Source: Entophlyctis helioformis | Lineage: Eukaryota; Chytridiomycota; Chytridiomycetes; Chytridiales; Chytriomycetaceae | Direction of reading: 5' to 3' | NCBI GenBank assembly: GCA_025526915.1 | Contig: JAHLKH010000125.1 | Location: forward strand, 18,245-82,244 | Length of the DNA stretch: 64,000 nucleotides | In this document: positions 116-51,792 of the stretch, one piece after another | How positions within the stretch are numbered: the stretch's first letter is position 1 | Layout of the letters: each line of letters begins with the position of its first letter | The notes under the pieces: generated by a model | What the model was told of the DNA's origin: nothing | Databases searched by the model: none | Seen by the model: only the letters and a program-made list of their open reading frames with translations | Program-made: the position numbers and the translations under genes

Positions 116-3100
116 TTTGCGCGCAAGCTCCACATCGAGCCAATCAACAGTGCCCACTTTTCAGTCCACGGCTGGAAAAACGACTCGCTCAACTCGGGCA
201 AGGTCGCTCCCGGCATGGAGATCCCGTTCATTGTCAAGTTCAAGCCAGAAGAAAACATCGACTATGTCTATAACCTCGTCTGCGTAACCGAGCGTGAAAA
301 GTTCCTTCTCCCCATCAAGGCTATTGGCGCTCGAGGTTAGCCGCGTCTCACGGGCTGTCCGGACAGGCATTGACACGCACACTGACTGACTGGTCGCTGA
401 TCGCATCCGGCGTCACGCTGAACAGGTGTTCTGGATCTGCCCGACGAGGTTGCCTTTCCAGTGTCGCATGTGCGCTACACCAACACGGTCATCAAGTATG
501 TCCGCAACATTGGCAACGCTCCAGCAAAGTTTACAGTGGCTGCTTTGCCGCCCTTTTCAGTCTCTCCAAGCAACGGCTTCTTGGAGATTGGCAAGTCCAT
601 CCAGATGGAAGTCAGCTTTTCACCAAAGGTACGTCCGTCAGATGCTCGCCGATTTCAATAGACTGGAATACAATGCAACCCGCAGCTGATTGCCGAGCCT
701 GTCGCTCAACAGCAATCCGGCAGCTTCGAATCAAGCCTGCTCTTCACGTATGACACGGGCGAAACCATCTCGGTTCGTGCCGTAGGCATTGCCGAGGACG
801 CGCACGTCAGACTCGACAAGAAATCCATTCACATGGAAAGCACGCCCATCACTCTGATTTCCTCAAAGACTGTCAAGCTCATGAACCGCACAGACATTCC
901 AGTGAGCCCCTTCATCTCCTGCACTGCACCGATCCTTCACGAATGCCCGCCCGCTCATGGCACTGACATGGTGGCGGCGTTTAGGTCAGGTTCAAGTGGA
1001 AGCAGTTTGCCAATGAGATGGAGGAGGAGCATCATCGCGCCAAACAGCTTCTCCTGGCTGTGCGCGAGGAACAGGAAGAGCGCGAATCGTTCAACAAGCC
1101 AGCGTCAAAGGCTGCGCAGCAAACTGACCTCATTGACTTTTCGCTCCTCGCCCAAAAGTACAAGGTAACGCCTATCCCAATCGCTGCGATTTTCCCGTCT
1201 GACTTGCAGCTCACATGTCGCATCCATGTATCTCCTGCGTGGATGGTCTGGCAGTCCAAGAGCCGCATCATCCACGACCAGGAGTTCGAGTTCAACGACC
1301 CCGTCTTCCAGATCGAGCCGCTCGAGTATCTCGTGTCGTCCAACAGCGAAAAGGAAATCACGATCCATTTCTCGCCAGTCAAGGCCGGCGAGCACGCCCG
1401 TGTCGCCTACTGCGAGGTCGATGGACGCGAGATGCGACTTGCGCTGCAGCTGAAGGGAGAAGCGCTTGGTCCCCGTGCACGCTTTTCGTACGACCTGCTC
1501 GACATGGAAAGCATCTTCATCAACACGTCGCACACGTACGAGGTCGTGCTCGAAAACAAGGGAGACATCCCCACACATTTCTCGCTCGCCGAGCCCAAGA
1601 CGCTGTTTGGCCCCAAGTTCTCGTTCAGTCCTCGTGAAGGGTCGATTGGCGTTGGAGAGCAGCGAGTGATCGAGATTGCGTTCTGCTCAGACATCCTGGG
1701 CGACTTTACAGAAGAGTTCCAGTGGGATCTCAAGGGAACATCAGAGCCGCTCATTCTGTCCTTCAGAGGCACCGTTGTCGGACCCACGTTCCACTTTGCG
1801 CCGTCGTCCCTCGACTTCCAAAGCATCTCGTATGGCTTTCCGGTCACGCACAAACTCAGCCTCATCAACACCTCGCACATTCCCATGGTGTACTCACTCC
1901 GCATCGACAATCCCGTCGATGTGGCTCATGCTGTTGATTTCAGCTTGACGCCCGATCGTGGCGTCGTGCCGGAGATGTCGCAGTCAGACATTACCGTGTT
2001 CATGAAGCCTCAGACACTGCAAGATGTCGCTTTTGAAATTGTCGTGGATGTCGAGAATGTCGGCAAGGACATGCTCAGACTGCCAGTTCACGCTGAAAGT
2101 GTTGTCCCCGAGGTCAGTAGCCGTTCCTTGTACTTGGATCGGCTCTCCACTGACGATATGACGCTTACAACCGCAACGGCGGCATCATCAGATTCATGTC
2201 CTGTCGACCCTGCTTGATCTGGGCGATTGCTACCTGTGCTACAGCTACCACGGCATCATCGAGCTTGTCAACGACTCGGACTTTCCTGCTCGGTTCATGT
2301 TGCTGCCGCAGGAAGAAAACGCCAAGGCAGTGTTCACCTACACGACCGACGCCTTTTCTGGCGTCATCGAGCCTCGATCGCACAAACCCATTGACTTGGA
2401 TGTCCAGATCAAGCGACTCGGTCAGGTCAACTTTCCAGTCTTTATCAAGATCGTCGGCAAGGAGCAGTCGCCCATCGCCGTCGACATTTCCGCCAACGGA
2501 ATGGGCCCAAACATCCAGCTCTTGTCGACAGAGCTCAACTGGGGCAAGATCGCCGTGCTCAAGAAGACGCCGCTGTCCCTCACGCTGACCAACGACTCGC
2601 CCATTGTCGCGCATTTCAACTGCATGACGCTGTCCGAGCCATCCGTGTTCAAGGTGCACCCAAGCCAGGGCACCATCCAGCCAGGCACAAAGACCGAGGT
2701 GATTGTCACGGCCTATCTCGACGACACCCTCAAATTCACGGACATCCTGAAAGTAGGCGTCCAGTCAGATGGCATCCATGAAGTGCAGCTCGTTGCGCGC
2801 GGACAAGGCACCACAATCGTGTTTGCAGACGTTCTGCGCCACGTCGACTTCAAGGACGTCTTCAGCAACTGCCAGTGTGCAGCAGACTTTGTGCTGAGCA
2901 ACATGGGACGCCGAGCGCAGACCATTCACTGGACGCGCGACGAGGCACGCGTTGCTGCCGGCAAGGACCCAGACTCGGGATCCAGCCAGGTGTTTGAGGT
3001 GATCCCGTCACGCTTCACGCTCAAGCCTGGCACGCACCAAACCATCTTCATCCGCGGCTTCTCCAACAAGGCTGCTGTTCTGCGCGAGAAGCTCGTGTGC

Positions 3101-6100
3101 CAGACCATGATCGACAAGGAGCCGACGCGCAAGGTTGTCGTGGAAACCGTCGTGACGGCAAACTTTATCAATCCCCTCATCGAGCTCACACCCAACGCAC
3201 TCAAGTTCGAGTCGACCCACACGACCGACGACAGCTTTGAGGCTCTCGAGCAGCTGCTCACGCTGCGCAACACCACGTCGCTTGCACTCAACCTTGCGTT
3301 CAAGTGTCCAGCGCCGTTCAGTGTGGATGTCAACTCGATCGTCAACGCCGATGGCACCATCGCCGACAGTCACGGACGCGAGCTGTGTCTTGGCCCGCAG
3401 GAATCGGTTGTTGTGCCTCTGCGCTACGATCCTTCATTCAACATGAACCGCATCTCGTCGCGGGAGCATGCCAAGCTCGTCATCTCGTACCGCGAGCACC
3501 CGCAACGTGACATTGTCGAGCTGTCGAGCGAGATCTCGTTCCCCAATCTCACTTTTTCAGCCAACTCGATCAAGTTTGGATGCATCGAAAAGGACCAGGA
3601 GCAGCGGCGTACGCTCTGGATCACCAACACCTCGTCGCTGCCAGTCAGCTACCAGTGGTACTTCCTCGAGGACTCGCATGCCGTGACATCCGTCAATGCC
3701 GCACATGCGGACACGGATGTGCATCGTGGAAGCAACGCGAATGCATTGGTAAACGCGGGATCGTCGACGCAGGGTGGGCTGAGCATCGACCAGATTGCCC
3801 AAGTGTTTGACATCCAGCCGCTGCGAGGCGTGCTCGAGCCTGGCGAGAAACAAGAGGTCGATGTCTACTTTTACGGCCAGATTGGCAACCGCTTTGACAT
3901 CAAGGCGCTCTGCGATGTTGCTGGCGGACCAAAGTACGAGGTCGCGCTCCAGGGCGAGGCGTCTACCATCGAGCACGCCTTTGACCGTGTCAATCTCGAC
4001 TTTGGAACGCTGCTCTACCAAAACATTGCCGAGCAGGAGATTGTGCTCTCCAACACGGGGCTGGTGACGTTTGACTATTCGACCATCATTTTCCCTTCGA
4101 CCCAGCTTGCTGCCAAGCTCATGGTGTCGCCGGCGCAAGGCACGATTGGACCCAAGGGACGCCAAAGGATCCTTGTGCGATTCTGTCCGTGCGTCCCCGA
4201 AGTCGTCAACGACCGCTTCTACATCCAGATTGCCCACTACGAGCCGACCGAGATCCACGTGACAGGCAATGGCGTTTTCCCTCGGCTGTCGGTCGACATT
4301 CCACGCATCCCCGAGTCCAAGTACGACCAGTTTCTGGCAGAGGCCGTTCGACGCAAGGGACGTGCCTCTGATGCGGCCGACGCAGAGTCAGAGGCAGAGC
4401 GCCTGCTCCTGATTGACAAGACGCGCGAGTACATTGCGCGTCTCACGGATGATGCTCGCCAAAAGATGACCCCCGCCGATCTTCAAAAAGCGCGGTTTGC
4501 AGGATCCCTTGTGCTGTACAACAAGGGTGTCCAGCACAAGACAACCAAGGAGAAGCGCGTCATGAACATGAGCGAGAGCTCGCATGTCAAGCTTGCAAAG
4601 TACATGTGTGATTTCGGCACCATTGTCCGCAACACAACAGCCAAACGCACGTTCCGTATCTACAACAGCGGGCTGCTGGCCGTGTCGTTTTCGCTCGACA
4701 AGAGCATTCTGGCGGGGTCGGGCTTCTCGATTGATCCTGACAAGATCAAGGCGCTGCCGCCCGGAGAGGGCATCGAGTTTAGTGTGACGCTCAATGCGCG
4801 ACACCATGTCATGGACGCGATCGATGTGGAGCTTCCCATTGCGGTCTCGGGCGGACCAACGATCGTCATGTGCCTCAAGGCAGCGGTGACGGTTCCCGAG
4901 ATCAAGTTTTCGGACGACCGCATTGAGTTTGGCGAAGTGCTGTGCGGATACCGCAAGACGGTGTTTGTGCAGGTCATGAACCCCAATGCCGTTGGCTGCG
5001 AATGGACGGCGCATGTTGCGGGAACATTGGCAAGCGGAGCCGAGTCAGACGCTGCTCACAAAAAGGCAAAGAAGCGCACCGGCGGGCCGACACAGATGCG
5101 CGAGTTTGAGGTTGTGCCTGCGAGCGGCACTCTCCAGCCGTTTGAAAAGACGTACATCATGGCGCGGTTTGCACCGCTCGACGAGCGCGATTATGATGTG
5201 ACGCTGCCCATCAAGGTCGCCATGAACAGCCGCTCGTTTGTGCTGCATCTGATTGGAAAGGGCATCCGTCCGTCGATCTCGTTTGAGCCAGACTCCATCT
5301 CTGTTGGCCCCATCCTGCCCTACTCGGAGGGCATCGAGGCTCGGTTTGCGATCCACAACACCATCAAGTACCCGCTGGAGATCTACTCGGTCGACTTTGA
5401 CCAGCAGTACCTCGAGGAAGAAGAGATTCTGCGCCAGATTGGCACGCACGAGACATCGCCTATTTTCCTGCCGCCACGCGAGCCTGGCGCTGCCCTGCCC
5501 GACTATGTGGTCGAGTATGTGTCTCGCAAGGCCAAGATCGAGTACCAGCTGCAGCAACACACACTGATGCAGCAGCAGGCACACCACCATGCTCATCATG
5601 GGCACGCGCACCATGGCGCCCACGCTCATGGTCATCTACCAGGAACGCAGCACACGCCTCGCAATGTTCGGCAGTCGCCGATACCGCAGTCGCATTTGCC
5701 GGGCTCGCAGCACGTCGTGCCTCAAATCATCACTCAAGGCACGGTTCCGTCATTGTCTGCTTCTATGGTTGCAACTCACGGACAGCTGTCAATGTCGCCG
5801 TTGCCAGCGACACAGGCTTCGCAGGGTCTGTCGCCTCAGCACAGGGTCAGAATGCACATGCTGCTCAGGCTATACCGACCAACACCACTCAAGGGCGGCA
5901 CAACTCCAGCAGTCGTCCATGTCTGCAGTGCACCAGAACCTGGGCGGGCTTGTCGGAACCAGCCAGCAGGATCAGCAACAGCTGCAGATGCTGGTACAGA
6001 CTGCCTCGAATGTGCCAGTGCAGGCCATGATGCAGCAAGGTAAGCAGCGATGGAGTCAGTCTTTCAGATCTCGACGCGTTTATTCTGACCGTTTGCATTG

Positions 6101-20704: not shown

Positions 20705-21075
20705 TAGACTGCTCTGGACGAATGACCGACGACAAGGGCGTGGCATTGACCCAACCTCTAAAATGCATCGATTAGAGCGAATCTTGTTGCTGTTCTTGAA
20801 GCAATGCTGCATTGGCAAGGTGGCTGGAACGCGCGACTTTGGGAGGTGTCTGCCAGCCATTCCATCGCCGCGTGCAGAGATGCAGCGAGTGGACGGTTTG
20901 GCTTGTGGGCAGGTGTTGCAGAAGCGGTCGACGCCAACAGCAAGTCACGTGCTCTATCACGTGATCCAACAGACTTTTTGTTGAGCGAACGATGAGGGGC
21001 AGGCAATTCTGTGTTTCCCCGTAGAGCACCCTGTGCCGGCACCTGATTGGTCGGCTGGTTTGCCTCGAATTTTGT
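20705..21075. promoter_or_regulatory. Intergenic gap with two CACGTG boxes
   Basis: 371 bp between the 3' ends of the syntaxin gene and the unknown minus-strand gene. No ORF is supported. CACGTG occurs at 20946-20951 and 20958-20963, in the arrangement GTCACGTG-n6-CACGTGAT. Paired boxes are odd between two convergent genes. They may mark an unannotated transcript or simply be chance. Confidence 0.35.
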
Positions 21076-22870
21076 TCAATTTGGCATCCAATTTTCAGAC
21101 TTTTTGAATCCAATTTCATATTCTTGTCCAGATTCCCAGTCACTCTGAGCAGCCTGCAGCCGATGCCTTCTCAAGTCGTGGTCGCTTTGGCGCTTGCTTG
21201 TGGACTGCCGAGCCTGTCCAAGGGGCAGCAGTTGGTTGCGTGTTGGTAGTGTCACGAAGGACTGTCTGCCACTGCCTGTTGCGGCTGCTGTCCCTCTGCA
21301 TCCAGTTGGCGCACTTGTGTGTGCTGCTGGGGCGGCCTGCTGCAATGTCCGAACGGCCGGTGTCACAGCCGGCACAGACGCACTGGCATCAGCTGCTGCT
21401 CTCTTCCGCTTGCTTGACGCTCTTTGGCGGCTGGCTGTTGGTGTGGCAGCTACAGCAACGGCTGGCTGTCCATGCTCGTCCACAAGGTACTTGTCGTCGT
21501 CAAGATAGTCAAGGCACACAGTGTCAACAGAGTCGCAACTGTTGACAGCCATCGCACAAGAGGCAGTCGAGCTCACCAACAAGGACATGGATGGATCACT
21601 CGGCGTATTGTTGAGCTGCCGCGTATCATCAAGCTGCTGTAAGGCATCGCGCTTGGCTTGATCTGACTTTGAGAACTGTCGAGGCGATACACACAGCAAT
21701 CCTGCTCACACATGCCAACCTCTCCTGGCTGCCTTTGTGTAGACAGCATACTCTTTCCAGACGGGATTGCTGATGGATCCCCATACAAAGATGTTGTATG
21801 ATCTGTCGTAGGATGGGTATGTGCTGTTTGTGCAGTTAGTCTGCTGTGCGATCAGTGCATACACATCCTATGAGAGTATCCTACCGGCATTTGAATGATG
21901 GCTCAACAAGGAATCCGTGCTGCTTGACGTCCATCGACCTGATCTTGAAGATGAGTTGCATCTGTCGCGCGACTGACATGAACTCTTCCAGGTCTGACTT
22001 GTCATTCCGGCCCTTTCCAGTCCGTCGTAAACTGTCTCGCCATGCGTTAAACAGCTGTGTCCCATGCAATGGTTAGTGCTGATCGTCAAGGAGAGTGTGT
22101 TGTCTGCATGCTTGTAAGCTTACTTGCTCCACGGGATAGGACGTAAGCGCGCGACCATGCAGGTGCGTAAAGGTAGCTCCTTCTGGGACTGCAAACTCTA
22201 CATCTGGATCAAGTGTCGCAAGCATGCCCAGATTCTGGTTGTTGGCTGCTGCAAAGACACTCGTCTCGGCAAACTGCCGTGTGAGGTTTGGAGTGATTGC
22301 CCTGCTTATTGTGCGTTGTGGGTGATCAGACTTACCTTGTGATGATCGCGGTACTTTGCATAGTGCTCAAGGAGTTGGAGGACGCTGTCCTTGAACAAGG
22401 GATCAGGATGCAATGCCATGCATCACGATGTCAGGATTGCTGGGATCTACGAGGCATGGGAGCTTGACGAGAAGCTTGTCAATGTCTTTGAGAAGCACCA
22501 CCTATACTTCACGGCCGCCAAGTTTCACCTTGATGGCAAGAGCATGGACGTTGTTGTTAAGTCGTCTTGGCACAAAGCTTGTCAGAACCAAGGGGAGTCG
22601 AGACGGCTGGATGCATATGACGCCTTTACGCGGGCCATCTGTGAGCTTGATGAGTGGCAGCAGCGAATGTATTTGGTTCTTCTCGTCCTCCAGTGTCATG
22701 CTTTCGAATGAACCATTGTCGCAGTGGAAGCACAAGCTGTTGTCCAGAAACTTCCCTGTTGGGTCGATGGCCTGTGGGTCTGCTTGACTGGGAGCTGGCT
22801 CTGTGGTGGCTGCTGCGTCCATGTCGTCCTGCTGGTGCACGGCGGCATGTGGTGGCTGTTGCTTGTCCAT
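21076..22870 (-). CDS. Unrecognised multi-exon protein, divergent to the XPG-Fanzor gene
   Basis: I do not recognise this family. A consistent six-exon model can be read on the minus strand. Exon 1 runs from the ATG at 22870 (MDKQQPPHAAVHQQDDMDAA; an upstream in-frame ATG is at 22969) to 22508. Exon 2 is 22336-22389, exon 3 22124-22273, exon 4 21885-22054; two further exons end at the stop at 21076. Readable segments include FLDNSLCFHCDNGSFESMTL, FAETSVFAAANNQNLG, LFNAWRDSLRRTGKGRND and YNIFVWGSISNPVWKEY. The C-terminal third is low-complexity with a basic RQRASSKRKRAAAD stretch that could be a nuclear signal. The penultimate intron would be only 36 nt. Its position next to the Fanzor gene makes a mobile-element cargo or partner possible, but nothing in the sequence proves it. 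Confidence 0.5.
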
Positions 22871-23196
22871 TCCAACTCTGTCGCCAGAGCACCACTGCCA
22901 CTGGTGGTGGGATTGCTGTGATTGGTCGAGCCCAGATTGTGTCGCGGCACTTGCCCAAATGCGCGCCATCAACAGCAAGCACAACACGGGCGACAACACA
23001 AGGCAGATGATGGGCGGATGGTTCCGACGGGCCAATCGGGAAGCGGGCGAACAAAGGCCGACCGACAAGCTGGCGAAAAATGGGCCAAGCTGCCACTGGC
23101 AGGTGGATCTGATGGTGCCATAATATGGATATGGGCGTTCTGTTTTCCACCCATCCGACAAACCTCATTGCACTTCGCACCACCACGGCCGCTGAC

Positions 23197-23302
23197 AGGT
23201 GTGCCTGTGTTTCTGTGTGCCTGCGTGTGCTTGCGTGTGCGTGTGCGTGTGCGTGGCGTGTGTGGTGTGGTGTGTGTGTGTGTGGGCGTGTGTGTGTTGG
23301 TG
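23197..23302. repeat. GT/TG-rich microsatellite
   Basis: Imperfect (GT)n/(TGTGCG)n run upstream of the XPG-Fanzor gene, visible as repeated gtgtgcgtgtgcgtgtg and tgtgtgtgtgtgg blocks. Confidence 0.85.
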
Positions 23303-23529
23303 GAGAGGGACGTGTGCATGCAGGCGCAACTGAGCGGCAGACGGCAGGCTGCACCGATGCACTGCTGGAAGTAGAAGTGCTTGCTGGTACTGACCGTCAC
23401 GCTGTTCTATGCCCCTGCCTGCCACGCTCTTCACAGCCCAAGACCTCATCAGTCCACAACTACCGCCTCCCAAGACAACCAGCCCACAACTACCGCCTGC
23501 CCAAGACTGTAAGTCCCCCTGCCGCACGC

Positions 23530-23598
23530 TCTGTTTCGCCGCTGCCGCCCATTCTGTTTCGCTGCTGCCGCCCATTCTGTTTCGCCGCTGCCACGTGC
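23530..23598. repeat. Three tandem copies of a 23-bp unit
   Basis: Copies begin at 23530, 23553 and 23576. Each starts TCTGTTTCGC(C/T)GCTGCC; copy 2 differs from copy 1 by one base, and copy 3 decays at its end into CCACGTGC. Confidence 0.8.
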
Positions 23599-23676
23599 TT
23601 TCTTGCCGCGTGTTTTCTTGCAGACACACTCTTCACTGCCACATGCTGACGCCACCGCCACTCGCCTTGACACAGC

Positions 23677-26600
23677 ATGGGAATCACCGGGTTCGGCCAA
23701 GTATCCAAGAAGGGGTATTGCAGCGTCGCAATACCCCCCGACGACAAGGTGTCCGGCGCATTGGACGTGGCATTCGGAGCCACCCAGCCGCACCAGCCTC
23801 ATCAACCACCAGCCTCACCCCGCCCACCAGCCACCTCATCAACAGCACCAGCCTCATCAACCAGCCGCACCTCATCAACAGCACCAGCCTCATCAGCCAG
23901 CCGCACCCAGCATCATCATCGTCCTTGTTGATGTGCTGAGTGTGTTCTACCCTCAGCTCGCGGCAGCAGCCGCACTTCAGCCGCCATCGTCCATTGGTGA
24001 GTGGCTGGAGATCGTCGCACCCATCCTTGAGGCATTCCTCAAGTCGGTCGGCGACGGCCGGGTCATCATCTTCCACGTCGACGGCCAGCACGGCGACTCT
24101 GGCATCAAGCAGCAGGCGCATACCAGCCGCGCCTTGAGCGTCTTGCGCGCAGCGGCCAAGGTCCAGCAGTTCTTTGCCAAACGTGCAACCAATCAAGGGT
24201 TTAGACAGCTAGAAATGCAAGTTCCCTGCTTTGTGTTGCATGATGCGATCCTAACTAACAGTCGATGTTGCAGAAAAGAGCTGCAAGCCCTCCTCCATTC
24301 ATTCACGTTGACACGCGACCATAAGGGCCACATTGCCGAGGCTCTCAAGATGCTGCTTGGACCCACTTCCCCGCATAGGGTCTGTTGGTGTGCCCACGAG
24401 GCCGACGTTTGCATTGCACGCGACGCTGCCGAGTATGCAAGCCAGCCAAGGTACAGATAGCCATGACATCCGTCTGTTGTGATTGATGGCTGACAATCTG
24501 CATCTCACAACAGCGACATTCCCATGGCGGTGATCGCCAACGACTCGGACGTCATTTTCCACTGCGCCGGACGTTGTCCTGTGATCACGACACGCATGTA
24601 CCGCGGCCGCGCCACCAACATCCACACATACAATCACCAGGGCATTGCGACCATTGCAGCCGCCCTGGGATTGCGCAATTTCCCAGGCGCTTGCCAACTG
24701 GTCGCCGCCCTTGCAAAAAACGACTATCACGATTGTTACGGGCGAGGTATGTGCGATTCCTGGCTTCATGCTCTGTGTTGTCATCGATCCTGTGGTGTTG
24801 ACTAACTCGCGTTGCCACTCACATCATCTTGCAGGCATTGCTGCTGCCGTCAAGTTCGTTAACAAGCAGTTTGACGCCGCGGCAAAGAAGCGCGGCTTCA
24901 ACAACCCGGCCGACTTCTGTGCGCTCCTTCAAGATCCTACGGAGGCCATGGATTTCGCGTACACTGTCGGATTCGCGTACTACAACGACCTGCTGAAGGT
25001 TGGAGGCGTGGCTCTTGCCAAAACTTTCCTGAACGCCTTTGCCGTTTTCATCCTTCACGAGGAATCCGGGGCTTTCGCCAACATGGTCGTCGCCCAGACT
25101 GGCGACAGCAGTCAATCCACCGCGCCAGTGCCGAGGCAAGTCTTTGCTTGACCGTTCGAGGACACTGCATTGTAGATGCATTTGGATGCATAGCACCATA
25201 CTGACCATCCATTGCTACGTGGAAATGACAGCAGCCAGGCTGCCAACACGACCACCACGCCCCAAGAACGGTATGTATGCATGTGATCTCTGCAGGTTCT
25301 CACATTACTGACTTATGCTCCTATTTTGATGTCATTGTTGGATCGTGATGCAGATGCCAGCTGCATGACGGCTGCGTTCTTGTTCACCCCAAGTCGCAGA
25401 AACACAACCCCAACTCGATCGCCGTACATCTGACTCTGGAGGACGTTGAACGGCTTGGCATCGACATTCTCAACACGAGGGAGATGGATGCAACTTTGGA
25501 CAGATCAAGAACTGCCCAATTGCTCTCGACGGTGTCCTCAAGCACGCGGCAGATCGCCTCGCTGGCATGCCAGACAGTGTTGCTGCCCGTGATCTTCTGG
25601 CCGAGATCAGCAGGTCGGCGAGCTCGAAACTGTTACAGATTGTCCACGAGCAGTCTCAAGCAGCGACAGTACGCGCGACGCTCGAGCCAGTCGATCAGGC
25701 TGTTTGGGATGGACATGTAAGTTGCTGCATGTCTCTGATGCATGTGCACTCCTTGCCTGGACGTGTCAAACTCAATCCACTGCTCATTGTACAGGGCGCT
25801 GCCGAAAGGATGAAGAAGCAGTTGGGCAAGATTGTCAATCGTCCATGCAAACCACACCGCCACCTATCGACACCGCGTACGTACTGCTTGCATTGGGATC
25901 ATGCCAACTCGTTACTGACAGCACCTTCTTTGCTGAACGTTGCTATTCCAGAAACAGATGCGCAGAAGGACTCACAGAAAGACCCACAGCAAGCCACGCA
26001 GCAAGTCAAGCATCAAGGCAAGGCCATCACCCGAGGCGGTTCCCCATTGACCGCTGCCGACATCTGCAACAAGGCCGTGGACAGGCTGAACAAACTGAGA
26101 AGCCTCACGGATGGCCAACCAGTGACACACCGCGAGCAGCTGAAAGCGGCCATCGACTTGCTAGAGTCCATCATCAAGCAAGCCACGGTGCGTCTTCATC
26201 TTCACTGGCTGTGTGTGCATGCCATGACTTGGCACGATCACTCATTGCTCCACTTGACAGGAGGCTCAAGTGCCCAAGCTGCCCGAGCAAGAACCGCCAT
26301 CCGCCGACAGCCAGGCTGATCAAGCAGACCGCAAGATCTTGTATCTCAATCAAGATGCAGACATCCGGACGACGGTCAGTTCTGGTGTTCCATTGCTGCT
26401 TGCGTGTGCATTGTGTGCACTTGGAATGCATTGCTGATCATGCATCCAACCTCTACAGGCGCGACGCCGAATCACCAAGCAACAGGAGGCTGCGAACAAG
26501 CAGAAGCGCGAAAAGCAAGCTGCCAAGGCCGCGGCAGACAAGGCCATCGACAGGAACAAGGAGAGTGCACGCCGGCAAGACCGCCGGAAGAAACCAGGGA

Positions 26601-29600
26601 GCAAAAAGAAGCAGACGTACGTGTTGTACACTGTGCCATGTGCCTTGGGCATGCTTGCTGACATCTGTGGGGTTTGCAGACGCAAAGCTGGAGCACGAGT
26701 GACACAACGTCGGGTTGACAGAAATGGGGGACGCCTCTTCTCAGGGGCACCCATGACGCTCCCTGCGGCCACCGCCAGCGACAATCAACAGCCTGCTACA
26801 GTCACCAGCGGCAATGATCAACAGCCAGCCGCGGATGCACCCGACCATCCCACCACCGACGCACCTGATCCACCCGCTGCAGACGCACCCGACCATCGTA
26901 GCATGAGAGTGGAGCTGGAGGTACGATTTAGGATCACCATTCTGCCTGTCTACATGCATGTATGACTTTGCATTTACTGACATGTTGGCTGGCATGGTGC
27001 TCAGGACATGCTGTCCAGTGGCCCGCAGAGTGCCCCGATCTTTGGCGTTCATGCCATCAGGTCATTGGCAGATTGGACGCGTCCTCTGCTCTCCCAGGAC
27101 GTCGTCACAAGGGTGCACTCGTTTACCGTCGGTGCGCGACATGCCGGCCTCGTCATCATCGGCGCCATCCTCGAAGAGCTGCTTGAGCTGGACCAAGACG
27201 CACCCCTACCGCACAAGTACCATGTCTACGGCTGGCTTGATGGCCAGACAACGCGGTACTGCTTCCTGGATGTCGACTTCAAGCGACTCGACGACCTCGG
27301 CGACAAGGACATCATCAAGGGCCTCGGCGCTGTCACGAAAGCGGAGCTCCTGTCTGGCCGATTCACGCTTCGCGAGGGCATCACTGCGCGGGCCATGTAC
27401 GGACGGAGTCAATACAACCACACAAGCAAGGAACGTTGCTTTGGGCACCCAGTGAAACTGGCGAAGGGTACAACACTCGAGTGCTGTACATTCGAGTCGC
27501 CTGAGTCGCCCGAGCATGACACCGCCAAGCAGCCCGACGATCAACAAGTTGCACCCCAGCCAGCTGTGCCCGATGATCACGGCAAGCCTGAGCAGCCAGC
27601 AGCAGCAGCACTGGCAGCACCAGCACTGGCAGTGCCAACACCAGATGACATTCTCTCGATCATCACGACGGATGAGTCGTCCATGGCATCCCTCTTCCGG
27701 CACGTGTCGTATGTGTTGACTGGAAGCGGGATGGAGCAGCCGCAGTCCACCATGCTCCAGCTCAATGCTTGGCTTGTGACCATCGCCCAGCTCATGATCC
27801 ATCGTTGCTGGACGCCGAGCACGTTGCAGGCCAATGCGACCAAGAGAGCCAACGCGACCAAGAACAACGCGCGGCAGAAGGGCACAACCAAGAACGACGC
27901 GCGGAAGGCCGAGTGGAAGGCAGGCGCGCGGCATCCGACCAGATGGTGGTCGAGCTCACACCCAGACAACGCACAACGGGCTGATGCACAGCAGGCAGCT
28001 GTGCCCTATCGGCTTGTCAACACCCTGCTGACCGCAAGCGGCGACATATTTGACAACTTGGCGAGGGAGGTGAGCGCCACACTCGCCAAGCACTTCATCG
28101 AGAACCGGTCAAAGCTTGCATTGGTCGCAGCCCAGAGAGCAATGCCTGCTGTGACTCCGAGCAGATTGCAGCGTGGGTCGATGCCATATTCAAGCCGCTC
28201 AAGACCACCAAGGTTGCCAGGCGTGCCTCCACTCAGGACGCTGCTCAGGACGCCCCATTGCCGGCCATCGAGGACATCACCATGGACGCCGCTCAGGACG
28301 CCACTCAGGATGTCGCTCCTCCCGCCCCAACTCTCAAGCGGACTGTGTCACAGCTTCTGCTGGCCACTGATGGCAGTGCATCCAAGAGGCAAAGGGACGA
28401 GACTACTGCCCCTGTTGCCACAGATGCCATGCAGGCCACACCACCAGCCGCACAGGACGGGGACGCCATCGAGATCCCGCAAGAGCTGCATCCGATTCAG
28501 GCGATTGTGCGCAGCATGTCAACATCGGACGTTGGACGGTTCTACCAACTCCTCAAGCTCGCTGGCACTTCGGTGATGAAGCTCTGCCCGCAACCAGCAA
28601 GCCGCGATCCTTTTGTCCTCATCACCGAGGCCACGCTCTTTTGGGCGGTGGTGGGGCAGCAAAGGGATCGCATCCAGGGCAAGCGCGATCCTGTCCTCCA
28701 GGCATTGCGAGAGGAGCTCCTGGCCGCAGTTGGTAAGTTGCATGTGTCTATGCCACGTCAATGCTATTTGATGCTGACACTCCACTTTTATCCAAAACTA
28801 CAAAGATGGCACGTTGACTCTCGAGTCGACTAACAACGACATCCAAAGGGCCTTCAGCAATAGCAAGGAGCTGGTCATCCTCGACATCCTCCTGCCCGGC
28901 CTCCGCCCCAAGAATCGACGCCTTCCAACACAGGCTGAAGGTGATGAGGCTGCAGTTGATTCTCAGCCTCTGGTGGCTTCAAAGCAAGTGATCAGACAAG
29001 GCAGCATCATGACGGATGGATACACGGTCTATCAGCTGGCACTGGACTGCCGCACAGACCGTCCAGAGTCGCCTCGCAGTATGTGCCATGCTTGGATGCT
29101 GTGGTGCACGCATTGATTCTGACTGCCGCCTTGATCTGCAGGTCCCAACGCGGCGTCTCCAGCCCAGCAGCCCAGTCTTGCTGATGCTGCTGTTGGCATC
29201 CTTAATGCCTTGAATGGTCAATTTATTGAGCCTGACCACATGGACGGCACATGTGAGTTGCTGTGCCAATCCAGACGCACACTTGTTGTCCACACCAACT
29301 GACATGCCATCCACAGCCGCCGATCCAGCCAACCCGTCAGCCACCAAGCCAAAAGCACCCAATCCTGTAAGCCACTTGCATGCCAACCTCGCGCATTGGT
29401 GCACATGCATTGCACATCCCTCACTCATTCCATGGCATGGCAGGCTCAGCGCAACTTTAATGCATCCCAGCGACTGCCCAATGTTGCTGATGCCAACAAG
29501 CTGCTCGCCGACAAGGACTATGGACTGTTCGCATTGTCAGCTTTGATTGGGGCGAAAGGTACCTGTTTGGCGCGTCCAGCATGCTAGTCAATGTCAAGGA

Positions 29601-30667
29601 GGAGACATACACGATGGAGTCCAACTACGTGCTCTCCTCTGGCATGGCACATGCCGAGGGCATCTTTCTGCGATGGTATGTATGCAATGACTCTGTGCCA
29701 CTCTTGACCAGATCAACTCACAGTGCCTGTCTCTTGTGCCAGGTTCAACAATCGATATGCTAAGGCAACCGACGTCCACGAGGTTATTGCATTCAAGACA
29801 GCAAAGCATGCCGATCCAAACGCCACAGCAGGCGAGAGAGCCTTTTGGGATCTGCGCTGCCATGCGTACTGCACGCCATTCCTCAATGCACGGGTACGTT
29901 TTCTCTGTTTCTGAATGCCCATTGACATGACCGCCATGCTGCTTGATTGCCTGCTGATCACACTGCATGGCATGGCATGACATGGCATTCCACAGAAGGT
30001 CAAAGCCAAGCGGTTCACCAAGCGCAGCAACCGCACGTCTGATCGCGGAAACGCTCTTGAGAGCATCATGAAGCTGGCAGGATCGACCACTGGCAAGCGC
30101 GCATCTGCTGCGTCTCAAGGCCGCTGTGACGAGCCAACAGAGAAGGACATTCCCGTTGTGTGGGCATTTGGCATCGACTTTACAGGCCAAGGTGGCCGGC
30201 ATGCAGTGTTTGAGAAGTTTCTCATCAGGCATCTGCGGTCGTCTGGATATGCCTATGTGCGTCTGATGCCACGCTGTCCATCCATCCATCTATCCATCTG
30301 TGCACCAACTGACCACACGATCATGCACACACACACACAGATCTACCGCTGCAACGAGAACCTGACCAGCCAGATGTGCCCGCAGTGCAAGCAGCGGATC
30401 CCATACGAGAACCACACCAACCTGCGACGCTACGAGTGCACAGACTGCGAGACTGTCTACCACCGCGACGTGCTTGGAGCCACCAACATCGGGATGGTCG
30501 CACAGGGACATCTACTCTTTGGACACCGGCCGCTCTACTTGACGCACACGCCAGCCGGTCAGCCTGTCAACAGCATCGCAGCAGTGTCCTCCACAGACAC
30601 TCCACGTGCTCTGACTTCCAGCACAACCACCAACACTTTGAATCGGGGCACCTCCCGATCGACCTAA
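23677..30667 (+). CDS. XPG/FEN-like nuclease fused to a Fanzor (TnpB-like RuvC) nuclease
   Basis: Nineteen exons give about 1,865 aa. Exons: 23677-24198, 24274-24450, 24514-24746, 24835-25135, 25232-25270, 25354-25716, 25795-25876, 25952-26187, 26261-26374, 26459-26616, 26680-26920, 27005-28732, 28806-29078, 29142-29252, 29317-29366, 29444-29675, 29743-29893, 29996-30256, 30341-30667. N-terminus: MGITGF, an acidic strand (IIIVLVDVLSVFYP), FHVDG, then the XPG-I block HEADVCIARDAAEYA and VIANDSDVIF, then a helix-hairpin-like LVAALAKNDYHDCYGRGIAA. Middle: a basic coil (RRRITKQQEAANKQKREKQA). C-terminus: TDGYTVYQLALD; RuvC-I IVSFDWGERYLFGAS (Asp codon 29545); NENLTSQMCPQC (Glu 30356); a C4 zinc finger ending YECTDC; RuvC-III HRDVLGATNI (Asp 30467). 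Intron 4 has a GC donor. Four 1-nt frame corrections are needed (near 23800, 25493, 28130, 29520). Both enzymatic cores keep their acidic residues. That it is one gene is inferred from in-frame exon chaining. Confidence 0.8.
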
Positions 30668-31055
30668 CGGGTCACTTCAATAGAAGGTGAGATGCTTGTT
30701 GGATGTGCCTCGCCCGCCTGTCGTCGCATGCTTGTTGCTGACTCGAACCTTCCATCGTGTGATGTGCTGGCTTGCATTCGTCGCCTCTCGGGTTGAATCC
30801 AATTCCAAATCGCTTGGTAATTGTTTGAATGTCGGGCCATTTGCCGGCGGTTTGCCGGCATTCCCTCGCCCTATTGCCCACCCCTCGCTAAAGACCGCAC
30901 ACGTCACAAACATGTATGTGGCATGCGCCTGGCTGTGTGCCGTTCACTGGCCGTCCATGCAGCCTGCTGACTCTCTAGGGCCGTGCTCCGATATGCTGCA
31001 CTTACCTCCTTGGTTGCGCCGCTATGCCTGGGCTCGCCATTCCTCTTGACAGCCG
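30668..31055. other. Fanzor 3' flank / COX5 upstream region; no ORF seen
   Basis: 388 bp. In Fanzor and TnpB systems the guide (omega) RNA usually overlaps or follows the 3' end of the nuclease gene, so the first ~200 bp here is the natural place to look. Two TTTGCCGGC copies sit at about 30839-30857 (each containing a GCCGGC palindrome). The region also contains the right copy of the bracketing repeat. No structure could be computed. Confidence 0.35.
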
Positions 31056-32002
31056 ATGCTCGCACCAGTTCGCTCCACCCTGCGCCGTGCCGTTGTGCAG
31101 CAGCAGCACCGTTTTGCCTCGACCGTCCCGGCTGTGTCCAACGCTGCCCTCACACAGCTCGAGACCCGCTGGTCCAAGCTCCCCGAGGCCGAGCAGGGCG
31201 CCATTGCCGACTACCTCGCCGAGGCACAGAAGGGTGACTGGAAGGCCATGACGCTCGAGCAGAAGCGTGCGGGTGAGTCGCTTGATGCTCAGACGATGGT
31301 GCCAGACCGCCTGTGTGGGGGTGCGAGGGGCGGCGGCGGGGAGACGAGCGGCACGGGTGCGGCGAGCTGGCAGCTGCCTGGCAGCCTGTCTGGCCGGCCG
31401 TGCGCAGGCACCTCTCAGCCCACGCACTCGGCAGCAGACCGCCCCAAGCCGCCCGCCCACGCCTACACGGCGGCCGCTCTCTTTGCTCGCTCGCCGGCTG
31501 TCCATGACGCAACACTGACTGACAGCGCAACACGCCGCTCGTTTGCTCGCACTCGATACGGCTGGCTGCCACTGCGGCCACCTCAACTGCTGCTGCGATA
31601 ACCACAACAACGGCATCTTGCACGGCATCTCATGCAACAAACAGCCTACTACATTGCCTACGGCTCGTACGGCGCCCGCACCCCCTCGGACCCCGTGCTC
31701 CGCACCAAGGTTGCCAGCTGGATTGCCGGCATCTCTGTCGTGTCGCTTGCCCTCTGGACCTACTGGGAGAAGAGTACGTCTGCCCTGCAATGTCCTGCAT
31801 GTATATGGGCAGCTCGGCGCTCTTGGTTGTGCAACATCTTGGATCTGACACTCGCCATGGCAACCCATCAACAGCCAAGATCCAGCCGTCGACCATGACC
31901 AAGGAGTGGCGGGAGGCTACCGAGAAGTGGTCGATCGAGAACAAGCTCAACCCCCACCTTGGCCCGTACGCCGAAGTGCGTGCCAAGAACCCCGACGCAT
32001 AA
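31056..32002 (+). CDS. COX5: Cytochrome c oxidase subunit 4/5 (Cox5/COX IV)
   Basis: Nuclear-encoded inner-membrane subunit of respiratory complex IV. Exons 31056-31272, 31645-31773 and 31875-32002. The N-terminus (MLAPVRSTLRRAVVQQQHRF) is a typical matrix-targeting peptide: basic, Arg-rich, no acidic residues. Then come LETRWSKLPEAEQGAIADYL and DWKAMTLEQKRAAYYIAYG, the family core. One membrane helix lies around WIAGISVVSLALWTYWE, and the intermembrane tail is TKEWREATEKWSIENKLNP. The first intron (372 nt) is unusually long; the phases match and no frame correction is needed. Confidence 0.93.
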
Positions 32003-50122: not shown

Positions 50123-51792
50123 TCACTTGCGCTGCCTTTGCAGTTGCTTGACGGTCCATACGAGTCGCTCGATGGTGTCCTCGGTGGCGTTTCTTCGGTT
50201 CGCTTGGGCAAGCAGCGCTTGTGCCTGGTCCAGTGTAAGGCTGCCAAAGAGAATGTTGGCGAGTTTGAGTTTCCTGGCGCGATTGAGTGCTCCAAGTCCA
50301 ACCGCGTATCCACAATCCAGCAAGTACCGCAGCATCTCGATATTGTCCTCTCTAGCTGCATGCATAAGTGCGTTGTCTGATGCGCGGACGCCTTTGGAGT
50401 GCATGTACTTGACGACGTCCAAGCATCCCAAGCCGATGGCCTCATCCAGTGCGCGGGGTGTGCACTCTTCGCCGAGGGTCTCGTGCAACCACTGCACAAC
50501 ATGGAGTTGCCCCAACTGCGCAGCATGATACATTGCCTTCTCTGTGCATCCTTCCGTCCTGTTGGCATGCAACCACTTGACAACATGCAGATGTCCGTTG
50601 GCAGCCGCATAGTCCATGGCATCAACTGTGCATCCTTCCGTCCGGTTGGCATGAAACCACTGCACCATATCAAGGCGGCCCTTTACGGCAGCATGACACA
50701 TTGCTGACGTCGTGCATCCCTCCGTCCTGTTCTCGTGGAGCCACTTGACGACATGCATATGGCCGTTATTTGCCGCGCTGTCCATCGCATAAGTCGTGCA
50801 TCCTTCCGTCGTGTTCTCGTGGAGCCACTTGATGACAGGCAGGTGGCCGTTTTTGGCTGCGTTATCCATGGCCCACGCCGTGCACCCCTCACGCCAATGT
50901 CAAACAGGAACTGTACAACATCAAGATGACCATTTCCCGCTGCTTGATCAACGGCATCATGCCAGTACACGCTTGTCGGATCGCGTATCTCCATCCAGTC
51001 TTGGAGTATGTTGTACTTGTCGTCGAGATGCTTGAGCAGATCGACGCACCCCCAGTTGATGGACATACGAGCGAGTGTGATCGGATGCGAAAAGTCGAGC
51101 AGATCGAACCAGCTGTGCCGCATGGGAATGAGAAGCAGCCGGCGGCCGTTCCACTGAGTTGTACAAAACGATCCGTCGTAGTCGTTGATGCGTGCGTCGT
51201 GTCTCGCACAATAGGGCTCGGTGTAGTCAGGAAAGCGCTCGCACAGACGGTCGTACATGGAGCGAGAGTGTGCGAGGAGCAGTCCGTTGTCGGCCGACAG
51301 ATCAACGTCAGGCAGCAGCGCCAGATCGCCCTGCCAGTCCATCTTGAACGCATCGGTCCACAGCTCAAGCGTCGCCGTGTAGTCGATGCGGCGCTTGTCG
51401 CCGAGCAGGCCGCACAGGAAGCGAGTGAGCGGGCCGGCGTGCTTGAGGATCATGGCGTGGATCTCGGCGGGCTTGCCGTCCCAGTGGCTGCGTCCGTACG
51501 GAAGGTCGCCGGTGGCTGGCGGCACCACAGAGCGAGGCACCCCTGGCTGTGCGGTCGTTGCTGCTGCTGTCTTGAGTCGCTTGGCTGGCGGCTGTCCTGG
51601 CTGTCCTGGCTCGACGGCTTGGCTGCCGCTCGCTCCAATGACCTGCTCGACCACAGCCAGCACAATGTCGGTGCGGCCAAGGGCAACCAGCTGCTCGGCT
51701 GTGCTCTGCAGCTGGCTCTGCAGACGGTGCACATGCTCGTCGCTGCCTGCTGCTGCGTCTGCGTTGCCTGCCGTCTGTCGCTGCGTCTGCAT
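50123..51792 (-). CDS. F-box-like protein with ankyrin repeats of the 'NGHL.VVKWLH' type
   Basis: Start set at MQTQRQTAGNADAA (51792). An in-frame upstream ATG (51978) would run into retroelement-like sequence. An F-box-like start (WDGKPAEIHAMILKHAGPLT) precedes an acidic spacer with repeated Leu/Asp motifs. At least seven ankyrin-type repeats follow, of the form AAxNGHLxVVKWLHENRTEGCT; the last ones are degenerate (ALMHAAREDNIEMLRYLLDC). Such repeats are common in chytrid, amoebal and giant-virus ankyrin families. One base must be missing near 50893 to join the N-terminal half to the repeats; otherwise the protein stops early. The role is probably substrate recruitment for ubiquitylation, inferred only from the domain pairing. 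Confidence 0.7.

Follow-up and report, generated by a model that had tools for sequence, protein, structure and literature searches.

A transposon gene of Entophlyctis helioformis predicted to join an XPG-type nuclease to a Fanzor-like RuvC nuclease

Does a run of exons that begins with the motifs of one nuclease and ends with those of another encode one protein or two, and to what kind of locus does it belong? The question is raised by a 64,000-nucleotide stretch of contig JAHLKH010000125.1 of Entophlyctis helioformis (Chytridiomycota), referred to here as the window, in which a preliminary description had placed an apparent fusion of an XPG/FEN-type nuclease with a Fanzor nuclease at 23677-30667. 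The genome comprises 29.6 Mb in 482 contigs, and the copies compared with that of the window are named by contig (C38, C53, C16, C169, C103, C239). We propose that the locus represents a single, broken member of a transposon family with terminal inverted repeats (TIRs), whose main gene is the nuclease fusion; our estimate for this explanation as a whole is a probability of about 0.6. That the family encodes a single polypeptide of about 1,800-1,900 aa, with a predicted 5'-nuclease domain, a linker and a TnpB/Fanzor-type RuvC nuclease, is by itself very probable from the sequence comparisons.

One reading frame across two nuclease halves

As first described, the acidic motifs of an XPG-type nuclease are followed in the same direction over 23677-30667 by the D-E-D residues and four-cysteine (C4) zinc finger of TnpB/Fanzor proteins, the parts being joined by GT/GC-AG introns. 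The comparative list for the window copy holds nineteen exons, all on the plus strand. Exon 1 (23677..24216) carries the MG... start, a low-complexity repeat in which the frame is broken, and the VDV and HVDG motifs; exon 2 (24274..24450) carries HEADV (codons 24395-24409), and exon 3 (24514..24746) NDSD (24539-24550) and NDYHDCYGR. The XPG domain ends in exon 4 (24835..25135). The linker is made up of exons 5-11 and their introns (25235..26920); exons 12-15 with theirs (27005..29366) presumably form, to judge by position, the recognition part within the TnpB/Fanzor half. Exon 16 (29444..29675) contains the RuvC-I motif SFDWG (Asp codon 29545-29547), exons 17-18 (29743..30256, intron 29894-29995) cover the RuvC insert region, and exon 19 (30341..30667) holds the RuvC-II Glu (30356-30358), the C4 zinc ribbon (30377-30448), the RuvC-III RD (30464-30469) and the stop.

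When the nineteen exon borders of the window were projected by alignment onto C38, every exon was found in one frame and in the expected phase; the only stop follows residue 1,874 of 1,893 codons. One projected acceptor of C38 reads AA; an AG three bases upstream preserves the frame, and the public protein model P0001, a relative, reads as if spliced at that AG. Introns lie at the same places in the compared copies: at the 18 introns of the window copy, 90/90 donor cells of the five sisters are GT or GC and 83/90 acceptor cells are AG.

The window copy itself is damaged. Compared with its sisters it has frameshifts near 25.50 kb (linker), 28.16 kb (exons 12-15) and 29.52 kb (just upstream of the RuvC-I Asp); in the repeat at 23.8-23.9 kb the frame changes as well. 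The fixed chain of nineteen exons contains 22 stops when read from 23677; read from 23906 it has no stop over the first 479 residues, which span the XPG part, and breaks beyond them, with 32 stops in total. These frameshifts and stops rule out an intact window copy, and of the earlier claim of nineteen exons in phase with no stop, the exon number stands whereas phase and openness fail for this copy. Under the fixed chain C53, C169, C16 and C103 give 35, 44, 18 and 27 stops, respectively, leaving C38 as the only open copy among the six examined; judged from the alignments, the closure of the other five is a matter of frameshifts or shifted exon borders. The stops in these copies count against a functional fusion gene. 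A gene finder left free to choose introns returned stop-free chains in all six copies, in the window through extra or odd introns and in C38 as a chain of 1,775 aa with a few stretches spliced out. As such a chain was also found in 39 of 40 dinucleotide-shuffled middles, with scores of at most 80.9 compared with 238.6 for the real C38, openness under free intron choice was discarded as evidence, and weight is given only to the score and to the outcome of the fixed chain.

The joint after exon 4

The doubtful junction is a putative intron at 25136..25234 (plus strand), which opens with AG|GCAAGT and closes with AG. Left unspliced it gives RQV[FIL]A and a stop: reading on through 25136 meets a stop within a few codons in all six aligned copies, each of which has GC at the donor, and P0001 ends in RQVLA at this very joint. 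In the divergent copy C239 the joint reads GCGAG|GTATGT...CAG. The public model P0002 splices there and continues into the next exons, ending later, by eye at a repeat insertion in C239. A comparable donor exchange is found at intron 1 (24217-24273, plus strand, GC-AG), where the window copy and C53 have GC and C38, C16, C169 and C103 have GT. Because the exchange at intron 1 mirrors that at the exon-4 joint, and because C239 has GT-AG there, spliced in P0002, a GC-AG intron is the best reading of the joint. The insertion in C239 (locus L085) follows the codons for ICKAASAQL, where the XPG-linker region is broken by a unit of ~75 bp repeated about three times, as judged by eye.

The element might instead carry two genes, one for an XPG-type nuclease that terminates at the stop right behind 25135 and another, farther downstream, for a TnpB/Fanzor-type protein. 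The in-frame stop found in 6/6 copies on intron retention fits this, as does the splitting of the public models, of which P0005-P0007 cover the RuvC side only. Seven database proteins, all from E. helioformis, match the two halves at E≤0.01. Among 740 candidates of 970-3,080 aa no protein of fusion length matches the RuvC part at that threshold, a result that also disfavours a fusion; since no long database protein matches the RuvC part, we take the public models to have split the gene. Two separate genes are nevertheless improbable. All six copies have a complete GC-AG donor, AG|GCAAGT, and in C239 the donor is GT, with P0002 running from the XPG domain into the exons that follow; C38 keeps an open frame, in phase, across the nineteen exons and lacks the one in-frame Met examined in exon 6. 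A single gene could also give two products, a short XPG-only nuclease when the GC-AG intron is retained and the fusion when it is spliced, with the element tuning the ratio. GC-AG introns are often alternatively spliced, the stop comes right after exon 4 in all six copies, and unspliced C239 likewise stops early; chance alone, however, would be expected to place a stop in an intron that is retained, and we regard such regulation as quite unlikely.

Co-linearity of the two halves in the genome

The fusion is further supported by the arrangement of the halves across the genome, where the RuvC/zinc-ribbon part has at least 221 exon matches and the XPG part at least 228. Using one exon per half and 150 zinc-ribbon loci, an XPG exon was found 3-9 kb upstream on the same strand in 71 loci, at 5.4-6.3 kb in 62 of these 71. 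It was found downstream at the same distance in 0/150 loci, and on the opposite strand in 1 and 1. The other 79 zinc-ribbon loci have no listed XPG partner; three of them were inspected (C235, C23, C274) and all are damaged copies, C235 being an internal deletion that retains the start of the XPG gene and C23 a short remnant. Among the plus-strand partnerless loci, 15/32 lie less than 5.4 kb from the contig start. In C274 (L088) a divergent Fanzor-like half is preceded, at ~2600-3800, by a frame that by eye resembles a Copia reverse transcriptase/RNase H. The fusion of the preliminary description is thus supported by the open C38, the common intron places, P0002 splicing the doubtful junction and this co-linearity, and not by the window copy, which is broken.

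Nature of the two nuclease domains

In the N-terminal half, VDV, HVDG, HEAD, NDSD and DY are invariant in the three rows of the XPG alignment (A1), with variants in the public models (GDSD in P0001, YEAD and TDFF in P0002); this acidic set presumably corresponds to the metal ligands of FEN1. Profile searches do not recognise the domain: Pfam XPG_N and XPG_I matched none of three copies at E≤5, which speaks against the assignment, the four PF00867 matches of the genome lie at other loci, and Pfam and PDB profile searches of this half gave nothing useful, one of the three copies having a stray Alpha_kinase match at E 0.008. As sequence profiles were uninformative, structure was required. An AlphaFold model built with a 19-row alignment (an earlier single-sequence model had a pLDDT of 40.6) has, by structure comparison, the fold of the Exo1/FEN1/XPG superfamily. 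The model therefore supports a 5'-nuclease domain of this superfamily with its acidic residues retained, and the earlier XPG/FEN assignment holds by structure while profile searches give it no backing. An MG start, picked by hand, shares the open frame of the core in C16, C169, C103 and C38 (MGL, MGV, MGV and MGI); in the window copy and C53 the frame of the MG differs from that of the core, and the C239 model starts with MKVQ.

The C-terminal half matches the TnpB zinc ribbon PF07282 above its cut-off (E=1.1e-11), as do all three members of the RuvC alignment (A2), and NF040570 on sister copies with E down to 4.9e-7, below its 100-bit cut-off. The motif D-X(125,275)-[TS][TS]XX-[C4]-X(5,50)-RD is present in the first row of A2, with a spacing of 187, TSQM, CPQC...CTAC, 5 and RD. 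The RuvC-II glutamate stands six residues before the first zinc-finger Cys (the alternative position, Ealt), reading E-NLTSQM-C in 3/3 rows. RuvC-I is SFDWG in the three A2 copies and GIDWG in P0006, P0007 and C239; the DPG of the Fanzor fingerprint is absent and replaced by DWG, which tells against a Fanzor proper. According to the part of PMC10711439 consulted, RuvC-I of Fanzors is near exclusively DPG and the Ealt position is of Fanzor type. By that definition, Ealt together with DWG places this half in the Ealt/D-hydrophobic-G group, predicted to be Fanzor-like but not Fanzor. The original Fanzor label keeps the alternative glutamate and the zinc-finger motif and loses DPG. No Pfam family matched the 27005..29366 part, and a PDB profile search with the RuvC part returned nothing at E≤0.001; the seven rows up to E 1 include LaTranC and an AI-designed RNA-guided nuclease, matched on the zinc ribbon.

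A high-copy element with terminal inverted repeats

DNA identity of the window copy to its sisters begins at 20994 and ceases at 30886. The 9.9 kb element so delimited (20994..30886, given without strand) is bounded by TIRs, GAGGGGCAGGCAAT on the left (20994..21007, plus strand) and ATTGCCCACCCCTC on the right (30873..30886, plus strand), and shares both ends with other copies; its end motif is GAGGGGYRGGCAAT. The 19-nt right-end pattern has 104 genome matches at ≤3 mismatches (41+63), compared with 1+0 for the backwards control, and the left 301 bp match at least 40 places. This high-copy element around the gene had been overlooked in the gene-only view of the preliminary description.

Target duplications were assessed in 11 copies whose two ends had both been read; in C22 the left boundary was set by hand at a variant repeat base. 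The 9 flanking bases on either side agree at ≥7 positions in 6/11 copies, compared with 2/110 mismatched pairs, and two copies have perfect 9-bp duplications; at lengths of 7, 8, 10 or 11 no duplication was found in any of the 11. The duplication is absent in C16, C169, C1 and C18, and the window copy matches at only 6/9 flank bases. No target-adjacent motif was seen by eye in a few flanks. Flanking target sequence is common to C235 and C398, and likewise to C22 and C169, which suggests segmental duplication or one site reused. TIRs with 9-bp target duplications are a MuDr/MULE-like feature, found here but not exclusive to that superfamily. The MULE transposase PF10551 had no match in a six-frame exon search of the genome, and no transposase domain was found in the element parts scanned against Pfam.

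AcademX transposons are likewise DNA transposons with a nuclease of XPG type, and we know of none with a RuvC half. The XPG domain could therefore be the transposition-linked nuclease here too, the RuvC half being a passenger and the fusion merely co-expressing the two. In the portion of PMC10045372 consulted, the length of Academ target duplications follows the encoded enzyme, 9-10 bp with the AcademH helicase and 3-4 bp with the AcademX nuclease. Such a link between enzyme and duplication, together with the 9-bp duplications observed here, speaks for this reading; their length, however, is not that of AcademX, and the lack of a transposase domain in the parts scanned and of a MULE match in the genome also disfavours this alternative, which we think unlikely.

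A divergent second gene, gene A (21076..22870, minus strand), has 8 predicted exons and 373 residues including the stop in a DP model; its 3' part lies inside the left terminal module, and it has no Pfam match. In loci L007-L013, L016, L017, L019, L021-L024 and L085 a second right-end type was seen, homology stopping at ...TATCGGGCC (or a close variant) against unrelated flank, without the GAGGGG repeat; TATCGGGCC-ended copies may belong to another transposon family that has the RuvC module in common with this one. Adjoining the element, at 31050-32000, is a probable cellular gene with a mitochondrial-type leader, which we take to resemble a cytochrome oxidase subunit. Farther along the window, an 84-bp tandem repeat of 2.2 copies (50709-50890) is possibly an ankyrin-like coding repeat.

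Selection and exchange of modules

The ratio of nonsynonymous to synonymous divergence (dN/dS; exon 1 was taken to end at 24219, 3 bases off the 24216 border) is 0.25-0.50 in the XPG exons and 0.23-0.59 in exons 12-13, indicating purifying selection. Two other results do not favour a constrained fusion: the linker, at 0.55-1.19, is under weak constraint, and the RuvC exons, at 0.41-1.35 with low divergence and some misphased codons, demonstrate none. The family could then be an old and decaying relic, its protein inactive and its ends moved only in trans. Five of the six examined copies being closed under the fixed chain, the internal deletion in C235 and the insertions in C239 and C274 would agree with this; the open frame of C38, the dN/dS of the XPG exons and the two perfect duplications argue the other way, and we judge a mere relic to be unlikely.

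Synonymous divergence exceeds 1 in the XPG exons in six pairs and is 0.05-0.19 in the RuvC exons in all nine. The left module (20994..21740, given without strand) has 0.85-0.96 identity per 100-bp bin with C53, C16, C169 and C103. Taken together, the outer modules, 20994-21740 and ~29300-30886, have ~0.8-1.0 identity per bin, with 0.77 and 0.71 in two bins of C53. The interior on the gene A side (21740-23600) is unrelated to C16, C103 and C169, and that on the XPG side has ~0.5-0.87 identity to them. From these alignments the ends of the element seem to have been homogenised or swapped among lineages; a comparable pattern of ends and interior is described for MCi-2 in the part of PMC3627910 consulted. 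Between subfamilies, the introns over 24217-28805 have 0.77-0.79 identity compared with 0.63 for exons 1-13, apparently above that of synonymous sites too.

A candidate guide RNA at the 3' end

From the zinc ribbon towards the right end, the sequence is conserved across 25 aligned copies. It includes a region (30640..30886, plus strand) of short invariant hairpins and one hairpin of variable length, suggestive of a candidate guide RNA (omega RNA). Of six variant hairpins, two are clearly more stable than their shuffles (z -5.4 and -3.5); the other four are not. The alignment has little covariation (a covariation term of -0.16, two-sided change in 2/40 pairs), and with a whole-region energy z of -1.0 a guide RNA is weakly supported; Rfam gave no match at E≤0.1. 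A guide RNA from the 3' end of the element is plausible on this conservation.

Relation to known systems

Fanzor1 proteins (SpuFz1 and relatives), as described in the parts of PMC3627910 and PMC10432273 consulted, are likewise eukaryotic, transposon-borne RuvC nucleases with the D-X(125,275)...RD motif and a glutamate beside the zinc finger, captured by TIR elements. The protein described here differs in its N-terminal Exo1/FEN1/XPG-type domain, in having DWG and not DPG at RuvC-I, and in length (1,874 aa in C38 vs 633 aa for SPu-1-1p). The MuDr-type Fanzor1 elements ROr-4, PBl-3 and MCi-4 likewise have TIRs, 9-bp target duplications and no MuDR transposase of their own, and the same part of PMC3627910 describes no XPG fusion in them; the E. 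helioformis genome, for its part, is without a MULE match. TnpB-family proteins with the alternative glutamate and D-hydrophobic-G, in the part of PMC10711439 consulted, share the Ealt and DWG fingerprint, by which the present half is assigned. With Exo1/FEN1/XPG 5'-nucleases the N-terminal half shares fold and acidic motif blocks, but it forms half of a transposon protein and has diverged beyond what the Pfam XPG models recognise.

Outside E. helioformis, word- and pattern-limited database searches gave no homologue of either half. Two further searches, weak in that each used two seed patterns, gave no relative of either half in viral contigs and none of the RuvC half in a prokaryote genome collection. 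The one open-access library searched yielded no paper with both Fanzor and XPG, in line with the earlier remark that no such fusion was known; the two papers with TnpB and flap endonuclease were off-topic by title and the start of the abstract, and the word XPG is absent from the main text of PMC10711439. A Fanzor-like transposon is thus known as a kind, and an XPG-type partner domain was not found described in the searches made.

Proposed mechanism and implications

So far as is known, TnpB/Fanzor RNA-guided nucleases leave the processing of the break to the host. For the fusion we tentatively suggest a division of labour, possible though short of probable, between an RNA-guided RuvC cut and XPG processing of 5' ends. 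Guided by RNA from the conserved 3' end, the RuvC half would cut the empty target or the excision site; the tethered XPG half would degrade or trim 5' ends, by resection or flap removal, and repair would thereby be steered to copy the element back. A stronger version, which we consider doubtful, is a 'cut and resect' machine in a single polypeptide, with a guided break at the empty allele, degradation of 5' ends by the Exo1/FEN-like half and homologous copying thereby forced, as a built-in form of homing. If this were true, repeated rounds of copy-back, and exchange of modules between families, would have left their trace in terminal modules that are nearly identical and adjoin divergent interiors.

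Expanded to many copies within a single genome, a natural fusion with a 5'-end nuclease would illustrate how transposons may govern the outcome of repair. It would render the role of Fanzors for their elements directly testable, and would offer a model from nature for nuclease fusions biased towards homology-directed repair.
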